Assembly (NCBI RefSeq): GCF_900176135.1
Contig: NZ_FWWW01000057.1
Coordinates: forward strand, 1-64,000
Length of the DNA: 64,000 bases
From: Hymenobacter roseosalivarius DSM 11622
GTDB lineage: Bacteria > Bacteroidota > Bacteroidia > Cytophagales > Hymenobacteraceae
Direction: 5' to 3'
Part shown: positions 24,552 to 53,760 of the stretch, piece after piece
How positions within the stretch are numbered: position 1 is the first letter of the stretch
How the letters are laid out: every line of letters starts with the position of its first letter
Program-made: the position numbers and the translations under genes
Notes under the pieces: generated by a model
What the model was told of the DNA's origin: nothing
The model's input: only the letters and a program-made list of their open reading frames with translations
Database searches by the model: none

Positions 24552-24592
24552 CCGCAGAGGTCCGCAGAGGTCCGCAGAGGTCCGCAGAGGTC
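24552..24592 (+). repeat. Four tandem 10-bp repeats
   Basis: Four exact copies of CCGCAGAGGT in a row, with no coding sequence across them. Copy number is likely variable between strains. Confidence 0.85.
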
Positions 24593-26380: not shown

Positions 26381-27190
26381 ATGCGACCTTTTACTCAATC
26401 TCTGCGCCTGGCCGCAGCTGCCATTTTCAGTGGGTTGTTGCTGGCTGGCCCGGCTCAGGCCCAAAAAGCGCCGACGAAAAAAGGTGCTTACCCGGCCGCC
26501 GAAGGTTTCGACCAGGCCGGCTCCGATCCGAAGGCCATAGCCATTGCCGACAAGGTGGTGAACGCCATGGGTGGCTACGATGCTTGGCGTAACACCCGCT
26601 TTCTGGGCTGGAGTTTCTTTGGGGGGCAATATCAGATCTGGGACAAATACACCGGCGATTTTCACTGGGAAAAAGATACGCTGGTGGCCAACTACAACCT
26701 CAACTCGAAGAAGGGCGAAGTATACAGCCGTGGCCAGGATATTTCGGCCACGCCTGCCGGGCAGAAAGTGCTCGACAAGCTCACGCCCATCTGGATTAAT
26801 AACTCCTACTGGCTCGTAATGCCCTTCAAGCTCAAAGACTCCGGCGTGACGCTGACCTACAAGGGCGAGGGCAAAACCATGGACGGTGCCCCGGCCGATA
26901 TCCTGCAAATGACCTTCAAAAACGTGGGCGTCACGCCTCAGAACCGCTACGAAGTGCTGGTAAACCGCGCTACTAATCTGGTGGAAGAATGGACTTATTT
27001 TCCCAAAGCCACCGATGAGCAGCCCGCTTTCCGCCGCCGCTGGAACGAATACGCCAAGCACGGACAATTGATGCTAGCCGCCGGCCGCGACGAGGCCACC
27101 AAACCCAGCCGCCTTGACAACATCGCCGCTGCTCAGCTGGTACCCGAGGGCGTGATGACCAGCAAAACGCCCGTCGCCAAGATTAAATAA
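26381..27190 (+). CDS. Secreted hypothetical protein (DUF6503/LolA-like)
   Basis: 269-residue periplasmic protein. Signal peptide ends near GPAQAQ. The mature part starts with ADKVVNAMGGYDAWRNTRFLGWSFFGGQY and continues as a beta-rich outer-membrane-lipoprotein-sorting-like fold (ILQMTFKNVGVTPQNRYEVLVNRATN). It fits the group annotated DUF6503 in Bacteroidota, recalled without a search. Function unknown. Motif copy at 26621 encodes FGGQ. Monocistronic. Confidence 0.75.
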   Translation: MRPFTQSLRLAAAAIFSGLLLAGPAQAQKAPTKKGAYPAAEGFDQAGSDPKAIAIADKVVNAMGGYDAWRNTRFLGWSFFGGQYQIWDKYTGDFHWEKDTLVANYNLNSKKGEVYSRGQDISATPAGQKVLDKLTPIWINNSYWLVMPFKLKDSGVTLTYKGEGKTMDGAPADILQMTFKNVGVTPQNRYEVLVNRATNLVEEWTYFPKATDEQPAFRRRWNEYAKHGQLMLAAGRDEATKPSRLDNIAAAQLVPEGVMTSKTPVAKIK

Positions 27191-33520: not shown

Positions 33521-33607
33521 CGGTGTATGGCGTTCAAATAAAGGTGAAAGAAAACGCCGGGCCTCGCACCTCGCGACACCCGGCGTTTTCCGGAAGCTAA
33601 AACCAGC

Positions 33608-35008: not shown

Positions 35009-35185
35009 AGGTAGAGGTTGGAAGCCTGTTTGGGACAGTATCCTCATTCTACGCAAAACGTCTGCCCGACAACTGTTGACGCCCGGAAAAATATTTTGCT
35101 CGAAGTGAGGCCAGCCCAAACCAGCCGGCCGAAGCCACAATAGGGATAACCTAACCTTTCGCGGCATCGCGCCAAGTTAACTGCT

Positions 35186-43358: not shown

Positions 43359-43391
43359 TATTCTACACGCCAATCCTCTTGCCTGCGCTCT

Positions 43392-44431
43392 ATGATACTT
43401 CCATCCCACTTTTCCCGTCGCGACTGGCTAAAGACCGCCGCGCTGGCCACTACTCCTGCCTTGCTGGGGGGCTGCCCGCCCTGCCTATTATAGCCGCCCC
43501 AGCTCCGGGCAAAACCCCCACTTTAACGGCCGCAGAAATCACTGCCGTGGAGGCCGCCTTAGGCAAGAAAGGAATCTACGTGCAAGCCCAAGCCACCCAT
43601 AGCACTCCACTACCGCGCAACGATTTAAAAGTAACCATTAAGGGAGAGCCGGTACCCATTTCCTTTGGCTTCGGTGGGTGGGTGGCTATCAAGCATACGC
43701 TCGACGGTAAGTCAGCCATGCTCATGAGTGATACGGTCCTGCTTCAAGAAGAAGTGAATCCTCTGATATCGGCTGCCCTAGCCAACGGGTTGGAAATTGG
43801 CGCCGTGCACAACCATTTTTTCTGCGAGGAGCCCCGCATCTTCTATATGCACATTCACGGTATGGGCTCCCCGGCTGAGCTGGCGCAGAAGTTCGCGGCC
43901 ACGCTAAAAAATTCCAAGCTACTGCCCGCTAACTAGCCCCAGCCAGCCGCGGGTGTTACGGCGGCCCAACCCGGCAACAATGCGACACCTAGCGCCGGCT
44001 CACCAACTGGCAAGGAGCTGTTCGATCTTCCAGCCTTGAATAAACTAGTGGGCTATCAGGGGGTAGTCAATGGCCCCACCTACAAGTATACGGTGGGCCG
44101 CGCCGATGTGCAATCCATTATGATGGGTACGGAGATGACCGCAGCCATCGGTCTAAACTCCTGGGCCGCCCTCGCGGGGAAACAGGCCGACGCCCATATT
44201 GCGGGCGATATTGCCATGCTGGAGCACGAGGTCAACCCCGTCATTAAGGCCTTGCGGGCGCACAACTTGGAAGTCGTAGCCGTACACAATCACATGCTCT
44301 TCGACCAGCCTCGGATGATGTTTCTGCATTATTACGGTCGGGGGCCAGCCATGCAGATTGCCACGGGCTTTCGAGCCGCGCTCGACCAGTTGGGGAAGGG
44401 TAAGATGGGAGCGATGCCCATGAAGCATTAG
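43392..44431 (+). pseudogene. Broken Tat-exported DUF1259 (LppY/LpqO-like) double-domain gene
   Basis: ATG 43392 opens a Tat signal (MILPSHFSRRDWLKTAALA, then LATTPALLGG) that runs out of frame in the six-G run at 43466-43471; seven G would restore the frame. The first DUF1259 domain follows in the next frame (ALGKKGIYVQAQATHS to KNSKLLPAN) and ends at a TAG (43934-43936). In the same frame a linker and the second DUF1259 domain continue (LVGYQGVVNGPTYKY, VAVHNHMLFDQPRMMFLHYYG) to 44431. Two lesions make it a pseudogene. DUF1259 genes are often found with chromate or copper resistance. Confidence 0.82.
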
Positions 44432-44732
44432 TCTCAAAAACTTCCCCTATGACATCTCCCTTAGTTACGCTGCGCGTAGTAAAGGAGACTTTCGTGTGCC
44501 TTCGTAACAGGACTTGGAGATTATAGTTAATCCCTGAAATGTTGGAGTCAGGTGATGATATGGCTTGCGCGGATACGGCACGGGTAAACTGACGGAGTCG
44601 GGTTGGGGAATCATCTTTAAATCGCCCTCACTTAATTTCATTTCGTACAAACTTTCACTCCGTATGAGGCGCGTTATTGTCTCCCTGCTTGGAATATAAC
44701 GATACCCAGACGATACCAGAGTGAAACAAAAA
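44432..44732. other. Gene-poor stretch
   Basis: A 91-codon minus-strand open frame (44465-44740) covers it, but its ATG lies inside the tRNA terminator hairpin and it resembles nothing known, so it is not called. Confidence 0.4.
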
Positions 44733-44772
44733 AAACTCATAACTAGCTAAAAAAACAGCTAGTTATGAGTTT
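44733..44772 (-). terminator. Terminator after tRNA-Arg
   Basis: A 16-bp perfect stem (44733-44748 with 44757-44772) around AAAAAAAC; on the minus strand it is followed by a long T run. It lies seven bases after the tRNA 3' end. Confidence 0.85.
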
Positions 44773-44778
44773 AGACAG

Positions 44779-44850
44779 TGATCACGCTAGGAATCGAACC
44801 TAGATCAAGAGCTTCGGAAACTCTCATACTATCCGTTGTACGACGTGACC
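44779..44850 (-). tRNA. tRNA-Arg (anticodon CCG)
   Basis: Folds as a standard cloverleaf on the minus strand: acceptor GGTCACG with CGTGATC, D stem GTAC/GTAT, anticodon stem AGAGT/GCTCT with loop TTCCGAA, T stem CTAGG/CCTAG with loop TTCGATT, discriminator A. The anticodon CCG reads CGG (Arg). The 3' CCA is not encoded. About 72 bases. Confidence 0.92.
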
Positions 44851-44984
44851 GGAAGGTGGGCAAAAGTAGAGAGAAAAATACGCCTGGCCAAACGTGGGGG
44901 GCAGTTTTGGTGGTTCTGCGAGTCAGTATAACCTTAAAGGGCCAAAATCAGTTAATCCCAACATACAACCCGAACCTTTACCTT

Positions 44985-45512
44985 ATGTCTACAAACGAAA
45001 AAAAAACGCTTTATACGGCCGATGCTGCGGCCGTAGGCGGCCGCAGCGGCCACGTACGCTCCGCTACGGGCATCATTGATCTGGATATGTCGGTGCCAGA
45101 GGGCCTGGGGGGCAAAAAAGGCGCTACCAACCCCGAGGAGCTATTTGCAGCAGGTTATGCCTCTTGCTTTCAGCAGGCGCTATTGGTAATTGCCCAGCGC
45201 GCCGGCGACCGGCTCGACTCACAAAGTGAGGTGAAATGCTCCGTAACTCTGTTTCAGGAAGGTGAGGCGTATGGTCTGAGCGCCATTCTTGATGTCGATT
45301 TGAAGAAATTTGACGAGGAGAAAACCATCGATATGGTTCGTCAGGCTCACAAAATCTGCCCTTACTCGGTGGGTACCCGCGGCAATATGGAAGTAGAATT
45401 GCGTGTAATGGGCAAGACCGTTCCAGTACAGCCGGAAGAAAACGCTGGCGTAGCCGGAAATAATGGTGTTGAAGCTTCTAGTACTACTGAGAATACGAAC
45501 GTTACAGCTTAG
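44985..45512 (+). CDS. Ohr/OsmC-family organic hydroperoxide reductase
   Basis: 175 residues. Ohr hallmarks: TADAAAVGGRSGHVRS, LGGKKGATNPEELFAAGYASCFQQAL (peroxidatic Cys) and AHKICPYSVGTRGN (resolving Cys). It reduces organic peroxides with lipoyl-type donors in the cytoplasm. The ~35-residue C-terminal extension is acidic and disordered, unlike the short paralogue at 53907. ATG at 44985; a longer open frame reads backwards through the tRNA and is not real. Motif copies at 44896 and 45107, and a motif-like terminator follows. Confidence 0.93.
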   Translation: MSTNEKKTLYTADAAAVGGRSGHVRSATGIIDLDMSVPEGLGGKKGATNPEELFAAGYASCFQQALLVIAQRAGDRLDSQSEVKCSVTLFQEGEAYGLSAILDVDLKKFDEEKTIDMVRQAHKICPYSVGTRGNMEVELRVMGKTVPVQPEENAGVAGNNGVEASSTTENTNVTA

Positions 45513-45529
45513 TTCTTTTTGCTCTAACG

Positions 45530-45567
45530 TAAAAATCCCCCCAGAGCATCTCTGGGGGGATTTTTTA
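45530..45567. terminator. Motif-variant bidirectional terminator
   Basis: TAAAAATCCCCCCAGA pairs with TCTGGGGGGATTTTTTA; the core G is replaced by T in both arms. Serves the convergent Ohr and sucC genes. Confidence 0.9.
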
Positions 45568-45587
45568 CTGTTGAACTACTAGCTACT

Positions 45588-46790
45588 TTATGTGCTCTGT
45601 GATTCCAGTACTTCTTTTACTTTTTGAGCAGCATCCTTCAGCAATACGGCCGAGAATACTTTTAAACCTGACTCGTCGATGATGCGGGCACCTTCCTCAG
45701 CGTTGGTGCCTTGCAAACGCACGATGATGGGCACGCGAATGTCGCCGATGTTCTTGTAGGCTTCTACTACACCATTAGCTACCCGGTCGCAGCGCACGAT
45801 GCCGCCGAAGATGTTGATAAGAATAGCCTGCACGTTCGGGTCCTTGAGGATGATGCGGAAGCCAGCTTCTACCGTCTGCGCGTTGGCCCCACCCCCTACG
45901 TCGAGGAAGTTAGCCGGCTCACCACCCGACAGCTTAATAATATCCATCGTGGCCATGGCCAGGCCGGCGCCGTTTACCATGCAGCCCACGTTGCCATCGA
46001 GCTTCACATAGTTCAGATTAGACTCCGACGCTTCCACTTCCAGCGGGTCTTCCTCGTTGGTGTCGCGCAGGGTAGCGAAATCTTTGTGGCGGTAGAGGGC
46101 GTTTTCGTCGAGGGTTACTTTGGCATCAACGGCCAGGATTTTATTGTCCGAAGTCTTCAACACGGGGTTGATTTCGAACATGGCCGAGTCGGTCTCGTCG
46201 TAAGCTTTGTACAGTGCTGTTACAAACTTCACCATCTCCTTCTGCGCCTCGCCAGTGAGGCCCAGGTTGAAGGCAATCTTGCGGGCCTGAAAGCCCTGCA
46301 AGCCTACGCGGGGATCAATGTGCTCGCGGTGAATCTTCTCGGGATGCTGCTCAGCAACTTCCTCGATGTCCATGCCGCCTTCAGTGGTGTAGATGATAAC
46401 GTTCTGGCCGGTGGAGCGGTCCAGAAGCACGCTCATGTAGTATTCCTTAGGCTCCGAGTCACCGGGGTAGTACACGTCCTGGGCAATGAGTACCTTGTGT
46501 ACTTTACGACCTTCGGCCCCCGTTTGCTTCGTAACCAACTGCATGCCAATGATCTGGCCAGCTATGTCCTTCACTTGCTCCAGGTTTTTGGCCAGCTTTA
46601 CGCCGCCCCCTTTGCCCCGCCCGCCGGCGTGAATCTGCGCTTTGATAACGTACCAGCTGGTGCCGGTTTCCTCCGTTAGGCGCTTGGCGGCGGCAACGGC
46701 TTCCTCGGGCGTATTAGCCACGACGCCTTCCTGAATGCGTACGCCGTAGCTTTTAAGAATTTCTTTACCCTGATACTCGTGAATGTTCAT
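45588..46790 (-). CDS. sucC: Succinyl-CoA synthetase beta subunit
   Basis: TCA-cycle enzyme making ATP or GTP from succinyl-CoA. 400 residues, the usual length. N-terminal [20 protein letters not shown]-grasp residues [37 protein letters not shown] and the CoA-ligase part [32 protein letters not shown]. The alpha subunit sucD is not in the window, so the pair is encoded apart. ATG at 46790 is the family start. Confidence 0.97.
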
Positions 46791-46877
46791 AGAGGTCAGT
46801 TCAATGGGGATGATGGGGTGGTGTACAGTGCACGAAAGTAGGCAAAAATGCGACGCGGGGTGTTACAAATGCAGAAG

Positions 46878-47999
46878 CTACTTGCCAAACCACTGCGCCA
46901 TTACCTGAGCGGCCTCTTTATGCTGGGGCGTAAAATCGGCATGGCGCCGGGCGGGGCCGTCGGCAGCTAGGTTGGGGTACCATTTCCAGACAAAAAGCCC
47001 CCCAAACCATTTCTTGGGCCAAAAGGTCTCGAACATGGCCGCGTAGCAGGCGGCTTGCGTGGCCTCATCGGGCTGGAGAAAGGCGGCCGTGCGGTCGGGC
47101 CACACCCAGGGTTCTACGGCTGCGTCGGGGGTGCATTTGTAGCCCATTTCGGTAAACACAACCGGCTTATTAAAGCGTTTTTGCACTCGTTCGATAGCCT
47201 TCAAATGCGGCTGCCAGCCGGCGAGTAGCTCAGCTTTGGTGGGCTTGCTATTTTTGGTGAGCGGAAAATAGGCCTGAATCCCAATGTAGTCCAGCGCATC
47301 CCAGAAGTGGATATGTTCGTACTCCCCGCTCCAGTTGGCGGCGTAGGTGAGCGGGCCATGATACACTTGGCGTATCTGGCGGATTAGTGCGCGCCACTCG
47401 GTTTCGTGGGCGGCGGTGGTTGTTTGCTCCAGTTCAGTACCGATGCACAGGCCGTCGAGCTTTTGCTGCTCAGCCAGCTTGGCATAGTGCAGGATAAAGG
47501 TGCTGTAGCTCTCAAACCACGCTTTCCAGTCGGCATCGGAGGTCATGCGGATGTCGCCGGGCCAGCTGCCGTCGCCGCGCACCCAGAGGTGGGGTTTGAG
47601 CAGGATTTTCTGGCCGCGCCTGCGGGCTAGTTGGGCGGTCTGAATCAGGCCGGCGTCGCTCTCGCCCCAATACACGCGTCTTCGGCCGGTGTTCATACCA
47701 ATGGTAGGGGAGGTAGCGCCGCGCTGCCAGCCAAAGGGTATTTGAGCTATCCAGGTAACATGGTGCTGGCTGAGTGGGGCCAACTCGGCATCGGTTATAG
47801 AGTCGCTGCCAACCCAGCTCACGCCCCGCATGCGGTTGGGACTGGCTGAGGGGGCAAAGCTGGCGGCCGTGCTTGGGAGGGCGCGCGAGGGAGCCGTGCG
47901 AGGCCACCACCAACTGGCCACGACCACTAGCACAATACTCAAAATCGTCAGGAGTGGGACGAACGCCCACCAGCGGCGGAGCAACAGAGAGGTTGGCAT
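46878..47999 (-). CDS. Membrane-anchored glycoside hydrolase, GH113-like
   Basis: 373 residues: one N-terminal membrane helix (AFVPLLTILSIVLVVVASWWW), then a TIM-barrel of the GH113 mannanase type: RMRGVSWVGSD, IPFGWQ, KILLKPHLWVRGDGSWPGD, acid/base Glu in IGTELEQTT, IGIQAYFPL and nucleophile Glu in VVFTEMGYK, ending LFVWKWYPN. It likely cleaves beta-mannan or related glycans outside the inner membrane; exact specificity is inferred from family. A motif copy is at 46997. Confidence 0.85.
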   Translation of the reverse strand: MPTSLLLRRWWAFVPLLTILSIVLVVVASWWWPRTAPSRALPSTAASFAPSASPNRMRGVSWVGSDSITDAELAPLSQHHVTWIAQIPFGWQRGATSPTIGMNTGRRRVYWGESDAGLIQTAQLARRRGQKILLKPHLWVRGDGSWPGDIRMTSDADWKAWFESYSTFILHYAKLAEQQKLDGLCIGTELEQTTTAAHETEWRALIRQIRQVYHGPLTYAANWSGEYEHIHFWDALDYIGIQAYFPLTKNSKPTKAELLAGWQPHLKAIERVQKRFNKPVVFTEMGYKCTPDAAVEPWVWPDRTAAFLQPDEATQAACYAAMFETFWPKKWFGGLFVWKWYPNLAADGPARRHADFTPQHKEAAQVMAQWFGK

Positions 48000-48127
48000 A
48001 AACAGATTATCAACTAATTATAAGCCGCTTAAAGCTAAAATGTAAGCAGCAAAATCGGGATTTGCCTTCTGATGCTCCCCGGCAAGCTAAGGAATTGAAT
48101 CCGATGCCATAATCTGCGATTCATCCG

Positions 48128-48135
48128 TAGCTTTG
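48128..48135 (+). promoter_or_regulatory. -7 element for the ABC ATPase gene
   Basis: TAGCTTTG fits TAnnTTTG. A transcript starting just after it would begin past the TTG at 48137, which supports the later start at 48173. Confidence 0.45.
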
Positions 48136-48172
48136 TTTGTTCCCAAGTGCTCACCCCCAATCCGCTTATCGT

Positions 48173-48826
48173 TTGCTGCAGGCCATCAATATTCGCAAAA
48201 GCTATAACACGCTGGAAGTGCTCAAGGGCATCGACCTGACGATTGAGAAGTCGGAAATCGTGTCCATCGTCGGTTCGTCGGGGGCGGGCAAAAGTACCTT
48301 GCTGCACATTCTGGGCACGTTAGATAACCCAGATACGGGTGAGGTGCTGTTTGATGGCCAGTCGGTTAGCTCCCTGGGACGCTCCGACTTGGCTCGGTTT
48401 CGCAACCGGCATATTGGCTTCATCTTCCAATTTCATAACCTGCTGCCGGAATTCACAGCGCTGGAAAATGTGTGTTTGCCGGCGTATCTGGCGGGCCGCT
48501 CGGAGAAGGAAGTGCGGGTACGAGCCCGCGAATTGCTTGGGATGTTGAACCTAGAGCGCCGCGCCGACCACAAACCGTCAGAAATGTCGGGTGGGGAGCA
48601 GCAGCGTACAGCGGTAGCTCGGGCCCTTATCAACTCGCCCGAAATCATCTTCGCCGATGAGCCCAGCGGCAATCTCGATTCGCAGAATGCGCAGGAACTG
48701 CACCAGATTTTCTTTCTCCTGCGCAAAGAGCTGGGGCAGACCTTCGTTATCGTTACGCATAACGACCAGCTCGCCGAAATGGCTGACCGGACCATTACTA
48801 TGAAGGATGGCTATATCACGGAATAG
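48173..48826 (+). CDS. ABC transporter ATP-binding protein, LolD/MacB type
   Basis: 217 residues. Walker [17 protein letters not shown] loop [12 protein letters not shown], signature [15 protein letters not shown], Walker [15 protein letters not shown] and His switch VIVTHN. The LolD/FtsE/MacB subgroup drives lipoprotein release or small-molecule export. No permease gene is adjacent, so its LolC/E or MacB-like partner lies elsewhere. TTG at 48173 (coding [11 protein letters not shown]) is chosen; a TTG at 48137 would add 12 residues. Confidence 0.9.
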
Positions 48827-48851
48827 GACTCTCTATTAAGATGTTCCCACT

Positions 48852-48963
48852 AGACAGTCATGCTCTATCTAGCGTCCCGAAGGAAGCATCTCGCGTGTTT
48901 AGTGAGAATAGTGATCTAACATCAGCACGCGAGATGCTTCGCGCTGCGCTGCATGACCGTCTT
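48852..48963. repeat. GTCATGC...GAAGCATCTCGCGTG repeat pair, second site
   Basis: Direct unit 48852-48897 and inverted unit 48926-48963; the CACGCGAGATGCTTC arms pair. Same family as 29241-29408, where one unit shares the word GAAGCATCTCGCGTG exactly. Confidence 0.8.
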
Positions 48964-48978
48964 TTTATTTGCCATAAG

Positions 48979-49016
48979 AAAAAAGCCCCCCAGAAACGTT
49001 TCTGGGGGGCTTTTTT
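48979..49016. terminator. Perfect motif-type terminator
   Basis: A 38-base perfect palindrome: AAAAAAGCCCCCCAGAAA / TTTCTGGGGGGCTTTTTT with CG at the centre. It stops transcription after the ABC ATPase gene and its repeats. Confidence 0.9.
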
Positions 49017-49228
49017 ATGCTATCAACTTAGGCTTACTCAAGCAAAGAAAAGGGTGGTTTGTCGGCTATGAATCCGTATTTTTTTAGTTTTCTAAAAATT
49101 TTAGGAATTTAATTCATAAGTATCTGATAGTCAGTGATAAAAATTACATATAAAAAGTACGCTTTTTGCACCTTTCGAACGTATCCTTAGTTATATACCC
49201 AAATAACAAAACGTACTACAGGACACTT

Positions 49229-50038
49229 ATGGAAACCGCCATGAACGAAGTAACCAAACCCGCTAAAGACCAGGCTCGCAAGAGCAAGATTGAGAGCTAC
49301 GACATTTCGCGCTCCGATGAGACGTTGCACTTGGCTACGGATCTGGCGAAGTTTATCAAAGAAAACAAGCTCACGACGACGGTGCAGGGCAAAGAGTTTG
49401 TGAACGTGGAAGGCTGGCAGTATGCTGGCTCGCGCCTAGGCATCGTGCCCATCGTAGACCACGTCATCAATGTCAGCACCGAGACGGAGTTAAAATATCA
49501 AGCTAAGGTGACCTTGTTCGACCTGCGTTCGGGTCATACTGTAGGCGCTGGCTTTGCTGTGTGCTCGAATAAAGAGTCAGGCAAGAAGTTCTACCAGGAA
49601 TTTGCCATCATGAGCATGGCGCAGACGCGCGCTATCGGCAAGGCATACCGCAATATCCTCGCTTGGATTATTCGCGCTGCCGGCTACGAGCCTACGCCTG
49701 CTGAGGAAATGGAGTATGGTGGCAATCAGCCCGAGGTGAAGCCCGCGCTGGCCGTCGTTCCAACTGCTGCTCCTGCCGCTGTAGCTGCTGAGGCTACGCC
49801 TATGAAGGCCGTACCCGCTGAGCCTACCGAGGCTCCGGCGCCCGCCATTGCGTACGCTACGGCTGCGCAGAAGGAGGAGATTATCCGTCTGCTCAACCAT
49901 CCGGTAATCACGCGCCAGGAAAAGACCAAGATGTTGCTCAACATCAATCGTCTGGACGAGGAGCGTGCTAACCAGGCCGTGGCTAAGCTGCGCAAGGCCA
50001 TCGAAGACCGTGAGAACGGCGAGTCGGCTGCCGCTTAA
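49229..50038 (+). CDS. Phage-like hypothetical protein
   Basis: 269 residues. The core AIMSMAQTRAIGKAYRNILAWIIRAAGYEPTPAEEM matches a sequence style common in phage and integrated-element proteins near single-strand annealing genes (M-x-x-T-R-A-x-x-R-A-x-R-N ... A-G-Y-x-x-T-P-A-E-E-M). An Ala/Pro linker and a C-terminal helical domain (KEEIIRLLNHPVITRQEKTKM) follow. No other phage genes are near. ATG at 49229; ~200 bases of AT-rich sequence upstream suggest a strong or regulated promoter. Own terminator follows. Confidence 0.72.
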   Translation: METAMNEVTKPAKDQARKSKIESYDISRSDETLHLATDLAKFIKENKLTTTVQGKEFVNVEGWQYAGSRLGIVPIVDHVINVSTETELKYQAKVTLFDLRSGHTVGAGFAVCSNKESGKKFYQEFAIMSMAQTRAIGKAYRNILAWIIRAAGYEPTPAEEMEYGGNQPEVKPALAVVPTAAPAAVAAEATPMKAVPAEPTEAPAPAIAYATAAQKEEIIRLLNHPVITRQEKTKMLLNINRLDEERANQAVAKLRKAIEDRENGESAAA

Positions 50039-50062
50039 GGTTTAGCTTACTTACTATACCGA

Positions 50063-50094
50063 AAGCCCGGTTCCGTTTGGAGCCGGGCTTTTTT
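50063..50094 (+). terminator. Terminator after the phage-like gene
   Basis: AAGCCCGGTTCC pairs with GGAGCCGGGCTT (one G-T) around GTTT, followed by six T. Confidence 0.88.
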
Positions 50095-50139
50095 GTTGAT
50101 ACATTAATCTGCTGGTTACCCTAATTGACTTACAAGGCG

Positions 50140-51288
50140 TTAAAGCGTTCTGCCAAATAAGCCGTTGCAGGTGGTTACATTAATTTGAAGCACCTGTCCG
50201 CCGCCGGTTGCAGCTGGGCTAAAGCCGACATTGGAAACATAGAGTTTACCATCGGGGCCTATCGTTATGCCGGTAGGCAAAGAAAGCCCTGACGTAATGG
50301 TTTCTCTGCTTCCCGATGGATTAAGGCGTACAACCCTGCCAGTGCCGGGCGTTGGAAAGGGATTTCCGGTAGTATTCTCCAGCACGTACAGCCGGCCCAA
50401 CTTATCGAAAACAATACCCAGAACAGTTGTAAACCCAGTTGCATAGACACTTATTTCGCCGCCAGGGGTAACCTGGTAAATACTAGAACTCCCCTGAACG
50501 ATTGGAAACAGACCCAAATTGCTAACATAAAAATTGCCCCCCCCCGTGATGCTACGACAGTCGGGGTGATGTGCTTGTTTAACTTGGCTGAGATATCAAT
50601 GACACGACTAACGGTACCACTAGTTGTTACCTTGAGCATTTGATCTTGGTTAGGTTCGATGACGTAAAGATCACCACCCACACTGATCATGCTATATGGA
50701 ACCCCATCAGGTTCAAATCCACCACCCTCGTGCGGTAACTGCACAGGATTAGCCATTAGAAAACGCACTGATATCGGCAATCTGTGTAAAGGACCCGTTC
50801 AGATTTATTCTTACAACTCCGTTAGGCATGGATGTAACGCCATGTGAGCACCCTGCTCCGGCAAGTAGCGCATACATCGTATTGCCAATGAAGGCAACAT
50901 CTGCTACACCTTCTACATCTCCTCCAATTAATTCCTGCGCCTGACTTGAAGGTAGTTTGTCGGTAACAGTAGTGCGTATACCAGCAGAGCTAATTTTAGA
51001 AACGCGCCCTCCGGTCGGGCTGCCTGTGTAAGGTCCTACTGGGCCGCCTACTTGCTCACATTGGCCCGCCGTGGAATTGGTTCCGCCTGTGCCGGCCTCT
51101 GCTACGTAAAGGTTGCCATCGGGGCCAAATTTTAATCCACGGGGATTATTCAGGCCGGTGGCAAAGGTGGTAACTGGTGCAACCGCGTGGTTCACGCACT
51201 GGGGAGTGTCATCTAATAAATCACAGCCCGCAAAAAGTAGCGCAATGGGAAATAGTAGGCCCATCTGCCACGTAACAGTCTTTTTCAT
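50140..51288 (-). pseudogene. ScyD/ScyE-type secreted propeller gene with two frameshifts
   Basis: ATG 51288 opens a lipoprotein signal (FPIALLFAGC) and repeated propeller blades (ATGLNNPRGLKFGPDGNLYVAEAG). The first part runs to a stop after ADISAFSNG (around 50745-50770): one extra T in TTTTC breaks the frame, which continues as LMANPVQLPHEGGGFEPDGVPYSM. A second break lies in the C9 run at 50537-50545 (nine C where seven or ten keep frame); the gene then continues as NFYVSNLGLFPIVQGSS to GLFGRTL. With both repaired it is one ~380-residue ScyD/ScyE-family secreted protein. Pseudogene, phase-variable gene, or homopolymer sequencing errors. Confidence 0.8.
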
Positions 51289-51837: not shown

Positions 51838-53760
51838 TTGCCTCTACCCACCGACGACATCCTGCACTTGCTGCGCCAGCATTGGGGCCACACGGCCTTT
51901 CGGCCGTTGCAGGAGGATATAATTCGCTCAGTATTGGCGGGCCAGGATACGCTGGCGCTGCTGCCCACGGGCGGGGGCAAAAGCGTGTGCTTTCAGGTGC
52001 CGGCACTAGCGCGGGAAGGTATTTGCGTGGTCGTGTCGCCGCTGATTGCGCTGATGAAGGATCAGGTGGAGCAGCTGCGGGCGCGGGGCATTAAGGCCGA
52101 AGCGGTGTACGCGGGCATGAGCCACCAGGAAATCGACCAGACGCTGGACAACTGCGTGTACGGGCCGGTAAAGTTTCTGTACGTATCGCCCGAGCGGCTG
52201 CTGACGGAGATGTTTCGGGTGCGGGTGGCGAAGATGAAAGTGAACCTGCTGGCCGTAGATGAAGCGCACTGCCTCTCGCAGTGGGGCTACGATTTCCGGC
52301 CGCCTTACCTGCAAATTGCGGAGCTGCGCGAGTTGTTGCCCTTGGTGCCGGTCATTGCTCTCACGGCCACGGCAACCAAGCCCGTAAAGGCGGATATCAT
52401 CGAAAGGTTGCGGTTTAGCTCCAACCATCAGGTTTTTCAGCAAAGCTTTGCCCGGCCCAATTTGTCCTACTCCGTCTTACAGACCGAAGATAAGCTGCGG
52501 CGCTTGCAGGAGGTTTTGCGCGGCGTGGGGCCCGACAAAACGGCCATCGTGTACGGCCGCACGCGCCGGCAGGTAGAGGACGCGGCGGCGTTTTTGCAGC
52601 ATCATAGGGTGTCGGCGGCGGCTTACCACGCCGGCTTGCCCAGCGAGCAGCGCCACCGCACCCAGCAGGACTGGATGCAGAACAAAACCCGCGTAATAGT
52701 TGCGACCAATGCCTTCGGCATGGGCATCGATAAGCCCGACGTGCGCCTGGTTGTGCACCTCGACGCGCCTGATACGCTGGAAGCCTATTACCAGGAAGCC
52801 GGCCGCGCCGGCCGCGACGAAAAGTACGCCTTTGCCGTGTTGCTCGCCGGCCCCAACGAGGCGGCCGACCAGCGCCGCCGGGCCGAGCTGGCTCACCCAC
52901 CCCTCGATACGGTACGGCGTGTGTACCAAGCGCTGGCCAACTTCTCGCGGACGGCCGTGGGCGGGGGCGAGCTGGTAGCGTTTGACTTCGACATTCAGCA
53001 GTTCGCCGAAACCTACCGAATCAAAGCCCTCGACGCCCATAATGCCTTGAAAGCGCTGGCCCGGCAAGGCCTGGTGCAGATAAATGAGGCCGTAAACAAT
53101 CCGGCCCGCGTCCATATTCCCATCGACCACAACGACTTGTACCGCTTTCAGGTCGCCAACGCGGCGCACGATAAGCTCATCAAGTCCTTACTGCGCCTGA
53201 ACGGGGGCGAAATCTTCGCGGGCTTTCAGAAAATATCCGAGAACAGCCTGGCCCAGCACCTGCGCCTAAGCGTGGTAGACGTGCGCAAAATGCTGCTGTT
53301 TCTGCACCGCTCGGGCATACTTCAGTATCAGCCTCAGCATAATGCCCCCCAGGCCCTGTTTACCACGCCCCGCCACGACGTGGACAAACTGCCCCTGAAT
53401 CAGCCGGCGCTGCGGGCCGCCTGCCAGCTGGCCCAGCACCAAACCGAGGCCGTGATTCAGTACAGTCTGGGCGGGCGGTGCCGGCAGCAGCTATTACTGG
53501 AATATTTTGGTGAAATGGATGCGCCCGCCTGCCGGGTCTGCGATTTTTGCCTGGCCAGAAAGAAAGCCGAGCAACCTGCCGCGCCCAACCCCACTTTAAG
53601 CACCCAGCTCGTGGACTTGCTGAAAAAAGCCCCCCAGACGCCCCGCGAGCTGCTCACTCAATTTGCTCCCCAGCAGGCCGAAACCGTAACCCAGCTGCTC
53701 CGCGAGTTGATAGATACGCGGGTGCTGCGCTATGAGGCCAACGGCCAGCTGCGGGCGTAA
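51838..53760 (+). CDS. recQ: RecQ-family ATP-dependent DNA helicase
   Basis: 640 residues; 3'-5' helicase for recombination and repair. Motif 0 FRPLQEDII, Walker A LLPTGGGKSVCF, DEAHCLSQWG, motif III ALTATAT, motif VI YYQEAGRAGRD. The RQC zinc is formed by RCRQQLL...ACRVCDFC and a winged helix follows; the final ~40 residues form a helical extra. No HRDC domain is evident. Start is TTG 51838 (MPLPTDDILHLL). Motif copies at 53344 (NAPQ) and 53629 (KKAPQ). Confidence 0.93.
   Translation: MPLPTDDILHLLRQHWGHTAFRPLQEDIIRSVLAGQDTLALLPTGGGKSVCFQVPALAREGICVVVSPLIALMKDQVEQLRARGIKAEAVYAGMSHQEIDQTLDNCVYGPVKFLYVSPERLLTEMFRVRVAKMKVNLLAVDEAHCLSQWGYDFRPPYLQIAELRELLPLVPVIALTATATKPVKADIIERLRFSSNHQVFQQSFARPNLSYSVLQTEDKLRRLQEVLRGVGPDKTAIVYGRTRRQVEDAAAFLQHHRVSAAAYHAGLPSEQRHRTQQDWMQNKTRVIVATNAFGMGIDKPDVRLVVHLDAPDTLEAYYQEAGRAGRDEKYAFAVLLAGPNEAADQRRRAELAHPPLDTVRRVYQALANFSRTAVGGGELVAFDFDIQQFAETYRIKALDAHNALKALARQGLVQINEAVNNPARVHIPIDHNDLYRFQVANAAHDKLIKSLLRLNGGEIFAGFQKISENSLAQHLRLSVVDVRKMLLFLHRSGILQYQPQHNAPQALFTTPRHDVDKLPLNQPALRAACQLAQHQTEAVIQYSLGGRCRQQLLLEYFGEMDAPACRVCDFCLARKKAEQPAAPNPTLSTQLVDLLKKAPQTPRELLTQFAPQQAETVTQLLRELIDTRVLRYEANGQLRA

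Follow-up and report, generated by a model that had tools for sequence, protein, structure and literature searches.

Can a run of cytosines in a coding sequence of Hymenobacter act as an on/off switch, or does it record the loss of the gene that contains it? The question is raised by a 64,000-nt stretch of DNA (the window), part of a contig in the draft genome of Hymenobacter roseosalivarius DSM 11622 (4.95 Mb, 122 contigs; G000), where a DUF1259 gene and a ScyD/ScyE-type gene both lose their reading frame at C/G runs. The initial annotation of the window ascribed both breaks to the run of one repeated motif, which it viewed as a slippage site that could allow on/off switching of surface or exported proteins, or else to homopolymer errors in the assembly. 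Comparison with the sister genomes G198, G010, and G215, which with G000 are the four motif-rich members of one clade, indicates that both genes are very probably recent pseudogenes with indels at their longest homopolymers and not switches. The frame breaks reported at the two runs are real features of the assembled sequence, but a second lesion in each gene had been missed, and the G run in the DUF1259 gene does not qualify as a motif copy. All source data were assembled sequences. The DUF1259 gene comprises the following features.

43392..44431, plus strand: broken DUF1259 gene with two PF07485 domains and a twin-arginine translocation (Tat)-type signal, most readily taken as a pseudogene of recent origin (profile search, three-frame translation, homolog alignment, and dN/dS, the ratio of nonsynonymous to synonymous substitution rates).
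43466..43471, plus strand: G6 run at the frame break, with flanks unlike the motif (translation, homolog alignment, flank score).
43934..43936, plus strand: in-frame TAG between the DUF1259 domains, where homologs have CAA or CAG in 7/7 cases (translation, alignment).

The sequence CTGGGGGGC at 43464-43472 contains six G residues (43466-43471), as first described. Three-frame translation places the Tat-type signal SRRDWLKTAALATTPALLGG and the DUF1259 domain in different frames, which part at G6, and bears out the original frame arithmetic both here (seven G would restore the frame) and at the ScyE-type run (seven or ten C). Searches with the PF07485 (DUF1259) profile match both halves of the protein (E values of 1.6e-36 and 3.7e-36), and the two domains share one frame within 43379-44428. 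The window copy was aligned with seven homologs (two each from G010 and G198, one from G215, and two paralogs from G000). It is short by one base in the run region relative to these sequences, none of which (0/7) has a G6 run at this site. The break at the run is thus accompanied by one that had been overlooked, a C-to-T nonsense change that produces TAG at 43934-43936 in the window copy, where all seven homologs retain CAA or CAG. In five of the seven homologs, the frame is open over 342 to 360 codons. For the near-identical copies on G198:C4 and G215:C1, no ATG-started frame was returned, and in the G215 copy the linker shows a gap of one base. Split copies also occur in genome G003 (open frames of 222 and 176 codons), and repeated decay seems to be a property of the DUF1259 family.

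The claim that the motif's own run breaks the DUF1259 gene does not hold, as the flanks of G6 are at chance level: their motif score of -4.9 is attained by 16% of random window positions and ranks 66th among the 70 C/G runs of at least six. A tRNA-Arg gene (44778-44850) lies just downstream of the broken gene (43392-44850 region), and related DUF1259 copies in the sister genomes sit on different, often small contigs; both observations would suit a gene of mobile or accessory character.

The ScyD/ScyE-type gene is encoded on the opposite strand and comprises the following features.

50140..51288, minus strand: broken ScyD/ScyE-family (NF033206) gene with a lipoprotein-type signal, likewise most readily taken as a pseudogene of recent origin (translation, G198 alignment, dN/dS, profile).
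50537..50545, plus strand: C9 run at the frame break, with flanks matching the motif; in G198 the run is two bases shorter and has an A within it (alignment, flank score).
50760..50763, minus strand: TTTT, one T more than in G198, forming a second frame break (G198 alignment).
50749..50751, minus strand: TAA met in frame directly after the extra T (translation, alignment).

Translation of this gene passes from a first frame to a second and then back to the first, and both outer pieces (109.3 and 88.9 bits) exceed the 80-bit cut-off of the NCBIfam profile NF033206 (ScyE_fam). The C9 run at 50537-50545 follows ATTG, as originally stated. The break at this run stands, and a second, about 215 bases upstream (50763-50760, with TAA at 50751-50749), had gone unnoticed. 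The ortholog in G198 occupies the same place and has an open frame of 416 codons; relative to it, the window gene has one additional T at a TTT run, which leads directly into TAA, and is two bases longer in the C/G run. The flanks of C9 score +7.6 for the motif, a value attained by 0.1% of random positions, and rank 41st of 70. Among the matches listed, there was no DNA match for the gene at this place in G010 and G215 (two of the three sisters). In a search of 59 genomes, the N-terminal piece matched seven at an E value of ≤0.001, G000 included; the strong matches besides G000 were two, in G032 (open frame of 431 codons) and G022 (480 codons).

Each gene therefore has two disabling lesions when compared with open-frame homologs, one of them in a C/G run. 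Neither could be switched by run length alone, as a second inactivating lesion lies elsewhere in each, and decay is favored over on/off switching because that second break is unrelated to the first. Slipped-strand phase variation, in which the C/G run would change length at a high rate and turn an exported protein on and off, is accordingly considered very unlikely. Both products do have export-type signals (Tat type and lipoprotein type, assigned by eye), and C9 falls within the range of the switching tracts of Campylobacter jejuni, which are of seven or more residues and mainly of nine and ten in the available portions of the relevant reports (PMC4965091, PMC8355987). The likeness to those loci, as far as these reports describe them, lies in a G/C run within the reading frame of an exported-type protein. 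The differences are that G6 is shorter than the Campylobacter tracts, that second lesions lie outside the run here, that the run is absent in homologs, and that its length is fixed at six between species. Run length alone would not toggle a full-length product of either gene, since TAG (43934-43936) and TAA (50751-50749) lie outside the runs. Nor is the tract kept in relatives with varying length: there is no run in the DUF1259 homologs (0/7), and it is interrupted in the sole clade ortholog of the ScyE-type gene. A search of one literature collection found no paper combining Hymenobacter and phase variation. Loss of mismatch repair was rejected as a cause, since MutS1, the repair gene covered, was above the cut-off in 6/6 genomes tested, and its presence also argues against rapidly switching tracts.

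We suggest instead that ordinary mutation recently disabled both accessory genes. In a gene that has ceased to be needed, indels would gather at the longest homopolymers, which in this lineage may often be copies of a very abundant C6 motif whose length otherwise stays at six. These runs would then be weak spots that record gene decay and not reversible switches. Open-frame homologs that lack the homopolymer at the site exist. Both genes resemble recent bacterial pseudogenes in having multiple lesions per gene, a site not common to homologs, intact relatives, and an accessory character; they differ in that the longest homopolymers here are largely copies of one lineage-specific motif. The tempting notion of surface switching in Hymenobacter is thus removed as unsupported, and two inexpensive questions may be asked before any such run is called a switch: is there a second lesion, and is the run present in homologs?

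Several observations weigh against decay. By the NG86 method, dN/dS was 0.07 for the ScyE-type gene versus G198 (380 codons) and 0.05, 0.055, and 0.044 for the DUF1259 gene versus three homologs, where dS was saturated. These values are similar to those of 30 intact neighbors (0.014 to 0.128; median, 0.054), so the relaxed selection expected of pseudogenes is not seen, and decay is compatible with the data only as a recent loss. Either selection on both genes was normal up to a short time ago, or the lesions are errors. Curiously, the indels of the ScyE-type gene add up to three bases, although TAA stands between them, and motif tracts of at least eight C are more numerous in G000 (14) than in its sisters (2 to 4).

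Errors at homopolymers in the assembly, which would leave one or both genes intact in the living strain, would account for the low dN/dS, and a sister assembly seems to provide a precedent. Relative to G198, the G010 assembly has six-to-five changes at 48/163 runs versus 9/133 in the other direction, and the longest nearby C/G run is of five residues at 27/44 of its frame junctions. In G010, runs of five that carry the motif G coincide with a frame shift in 13/40 confident same-strand calls, although these calls come from the noisy codon-usage method. One region, G010:C1:160001-360000, has many six-to-five changes at motif runs, with frame breaks there. Homopolymers are probably undercalled in the G010 assembly, and six-to-five changes also predominate in G215 (36/173 versus 7/148 in the other direction). 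Run lengths in these sister assemblies are therefore unfit as evidence for switching. The G010 pattern is not shown by G000. The DUF1259 TAG is a substitution and not an indel, comparison with 51 G198 genes shows the rest of the window to be clean, and a glycosidase gene elsewhere in G000 has a 50-base deletion besides a lengthened run. Assembly error is not favored on these grounds; we consider it unlikely, with decay the better explanation.

The frame integrity of other genes was surveyed with proteins of two sisters. G198 proteins covered 51 ortholog-like genes in the window and 72 on contig C17 of G000, flagging 13 and 12, respectively; most flags were merely a stop inside or at the edge of the alignment. 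The accepted junctions in the two samples lie in the ScyE-type gene and in a gene for a glycosidase of family GH2. As regards the original statement that all other coding copies keep frame, those accepted in the window number two, both in the ScyE-type gene; a junction at 33544, seen with G215 genes, was left undecided. Junctions at 35011 and 58001 were, by eye, a shadow frame and a gene boundary. G215 proteins covered 50 genes in the window and 78 on C17 (8 and 16 flagged, respectively), and several further junctions in this survey lay near motif runs. Two of its junctions, at 26625 and 61428, were rejected as window breaks because the window frames are open there, and four more on C17 were rejected as G000 breaks because they were unflagged with G198 proteins; these junctions are accordingly attributed to the G215 query sequences themselves. 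Frame calling by codon usage (150-base flanks) was too noisy to serve as the sole method, with 59 to 70% of random positions of low confidence.

The GH2 gene (G000:C17:43500-46350) has G7 where all three sisters have G6 (3/3), together with the 50-base deletion; the sisters' frames are open across G6, and the family was assigned on the G198 copy. This six-to-seven change at a motif run counts in favor of phase variation, but the gene again has an independent lesion. A C7 run at G000:C17:46321 in the same gene was rejected as a second slippage event, as the alignment has no gap at the run.

Long motif tracts in the genome mostly keep the reading frame. WTG followed by eight C occurs 14 times in G000 (two for the reversed pattern); G198 has 3, G215 has 2, and G010 has 4, and four further Hymenobacter genomes range from 0 to 5. 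Eleven of the 14 G000 tracts (≥8 C) keep frame: for 10, an open frame of 202 to 872 codons reads through the run, and one, the C9 of an alpha-galactosidase-type gene, matches the G198 frame with one residue added. The last three are one after which five codons of a 507-codon frame remain (undecided), one outside long frames, and the ScyE-type gene. Tracts of eight occur in frame in the adenylosuccinate synthetase gene (purA) and in a UvrA-type gene, where frequent slipping would be costly. The view of the motif as a slippage site can thus be kept in the sense of a mutational weak spot, given the GH2 run (G7 versus G6) and the additional residue at the alpha-galactosidase-type C9. The proposed switching of exported or surface proteins is not supported, given the independent lesions in the two window genes and the GH2 gene, the lack of runs in the homologs compared, and the tract lengths, both those of the long tracts in frame and those of runs equal in length in G198 (44/44; see below).

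Long G/C runs can be slippery, and programmed ribosomal or transcriptional slippage could in principle join the frames. The site is not conserved among the homologs compared, and TAG and the upstream TAA would still end translation. According to the accessible part of a frame-transition survey (PMC3711429), conservation of the site is the mark of a programmed case, and a singleton mostly points to an indel or an error. Programmed slippage is the least probable of the alternatives and hardly credible here.

The motif itself is a stronger lead than the two frame breaks. Its consensus, AAAWWTG-C6-AG, combines an AT-rich arm with C6 and is not palindromic. The 13-mer core AWTTGCCCCCCAG has 357 exact copies in G000 versus 0 for the reversed pattern. 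Exact copies number 357 to 465 in 4/120 Hymenobacter genomes and 0 to 3 in the other 116, and in a family sample of 200 genomes, the other 196 carry 0 to 3. The motif thus has the extreme, lineage-confined abundance of HIP-like or uptake-like motifs. In a RecQ tree, the four motif-rich genomes cluster together (support, 100/99), and the G010 row is long branched. The best named matches of the G000 RecQ come from Hymenobacter species (up to 80% identity), with which it also groups in the tree and from which the genus can be inferred.

Motif run lengths peak sharply at six. In 864 kb from the four genomes, both strands included, 739 runs had exactly six residues, 28 had seven, and 7 were longer. 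In G000 (window, C17, and C50), runs with motif-like flanks inside open frames had lengths of 4, 5, 6, 7, and 9 in 110, 48, 163, 7, and 1 cases, respectively; outside open frames, lengths of 4, 5, 6, 7, and 10 occurred in 11, 11, 23, 2, and 1 cases. Among 59 G-preceded runs aligned between the window and G198, 43 were six in both and 1 was seven in both, while the other 15 lacked a G198 run of at least six; substitutions account for most of these, and a few alignments are gapped or poor. Where both genomes keep a run of at least six, lengths are therefore equal in 44/44 cases across ~16% divergence. Judged from these alignments, stability between species is the opposite of what characterizes a hypervariable tract. 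The heptamer GCCCCCC is also conserved above background, being kept from the window to G198 at 42/60 places (mean 7-mer, 0.33), from G215 to G198 at 114/149, and from G198 to G215 at 114/175 (mean 7-mer, 0.40). An intact copy in recQ serves as an example.

53345..53350, plus strand: intact motif copy in recQ (alignment).

The motif is present at this site in G000, G010, and G198 (3/4 clade members) and absent in G215 and in the 7/7 outgroup species aligned. There is no length difference at the site, and the copy therefore arose there by substitution. All six phases relative to genes are represented among the copies, to an uneven degree (8 to 101 cases). Polarity with respect to the replication strand was not seen in the samples: WWGC6 occurs 32 times on the plus and 24 times on the minus strand of the window and 28 to 85 times per strand in five other samples. 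Inverted motif pairs with A and T tracts, terminator-like in appearance, occur four times in the window, e.g., at 48979-49016.

Two known systems provide comparisons. Like HIP1 of cyanobacteria, as presented in part of one source (PMC4390886), the motif is short, lineage specific, of very high copy number, and often within genes; unlike HIP1, which is palindromic and linked to a methyltransferase, it is not a palindrome, and no methylase search was made here. With the DNA uptake sequences of Haemophilus and Neisseria, as covered by the available text of another report (PMC1939737), it shares a nonpalindromic form, hundreds of copies on both strands, some inverted pairs, and, in our samples, the absence of orientation bias; it differs in sequence and phylum and is known from sequence alone. 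Literature searches on Hymenobacter and overrepresented motifs gave a sole match, which concerns LexA by its title, and among the matches listed for DNA uptake, Hymenobacter was not named. A fixed-length motif with hundreds of copies in 4/120 Hymenobacter genomes searched and near-absence from the rest is the real puzzle. With a confidence that we place at about the midpoint, one Hymenobacter clade may have filled its genome with a nonpalindromic DNA signal, AAAWWTG-C6-AG, that was installed by point substitution, is conserved well above background, is held at six C, and is presumably read by a clade-specific protein of uptake, repair, or modification. The cost would be hundreds of weak spots for indels, showing as frame breaks in disused genes.

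Two other repeats were observed in the window. A palindromic repetitive extragenic palindrome (REP)-like repeat of ~75 bases lies at 48883-48957, with many similar copies among the matches listed, in all four motif-rich genomes; a tRNA reading of it was rejected, as the window yielded a single tRNA, that at 44778-44850. A perfect tandem repeat of CCGCAGAGGT, with 4.1 copies, occupies 24552-24592.

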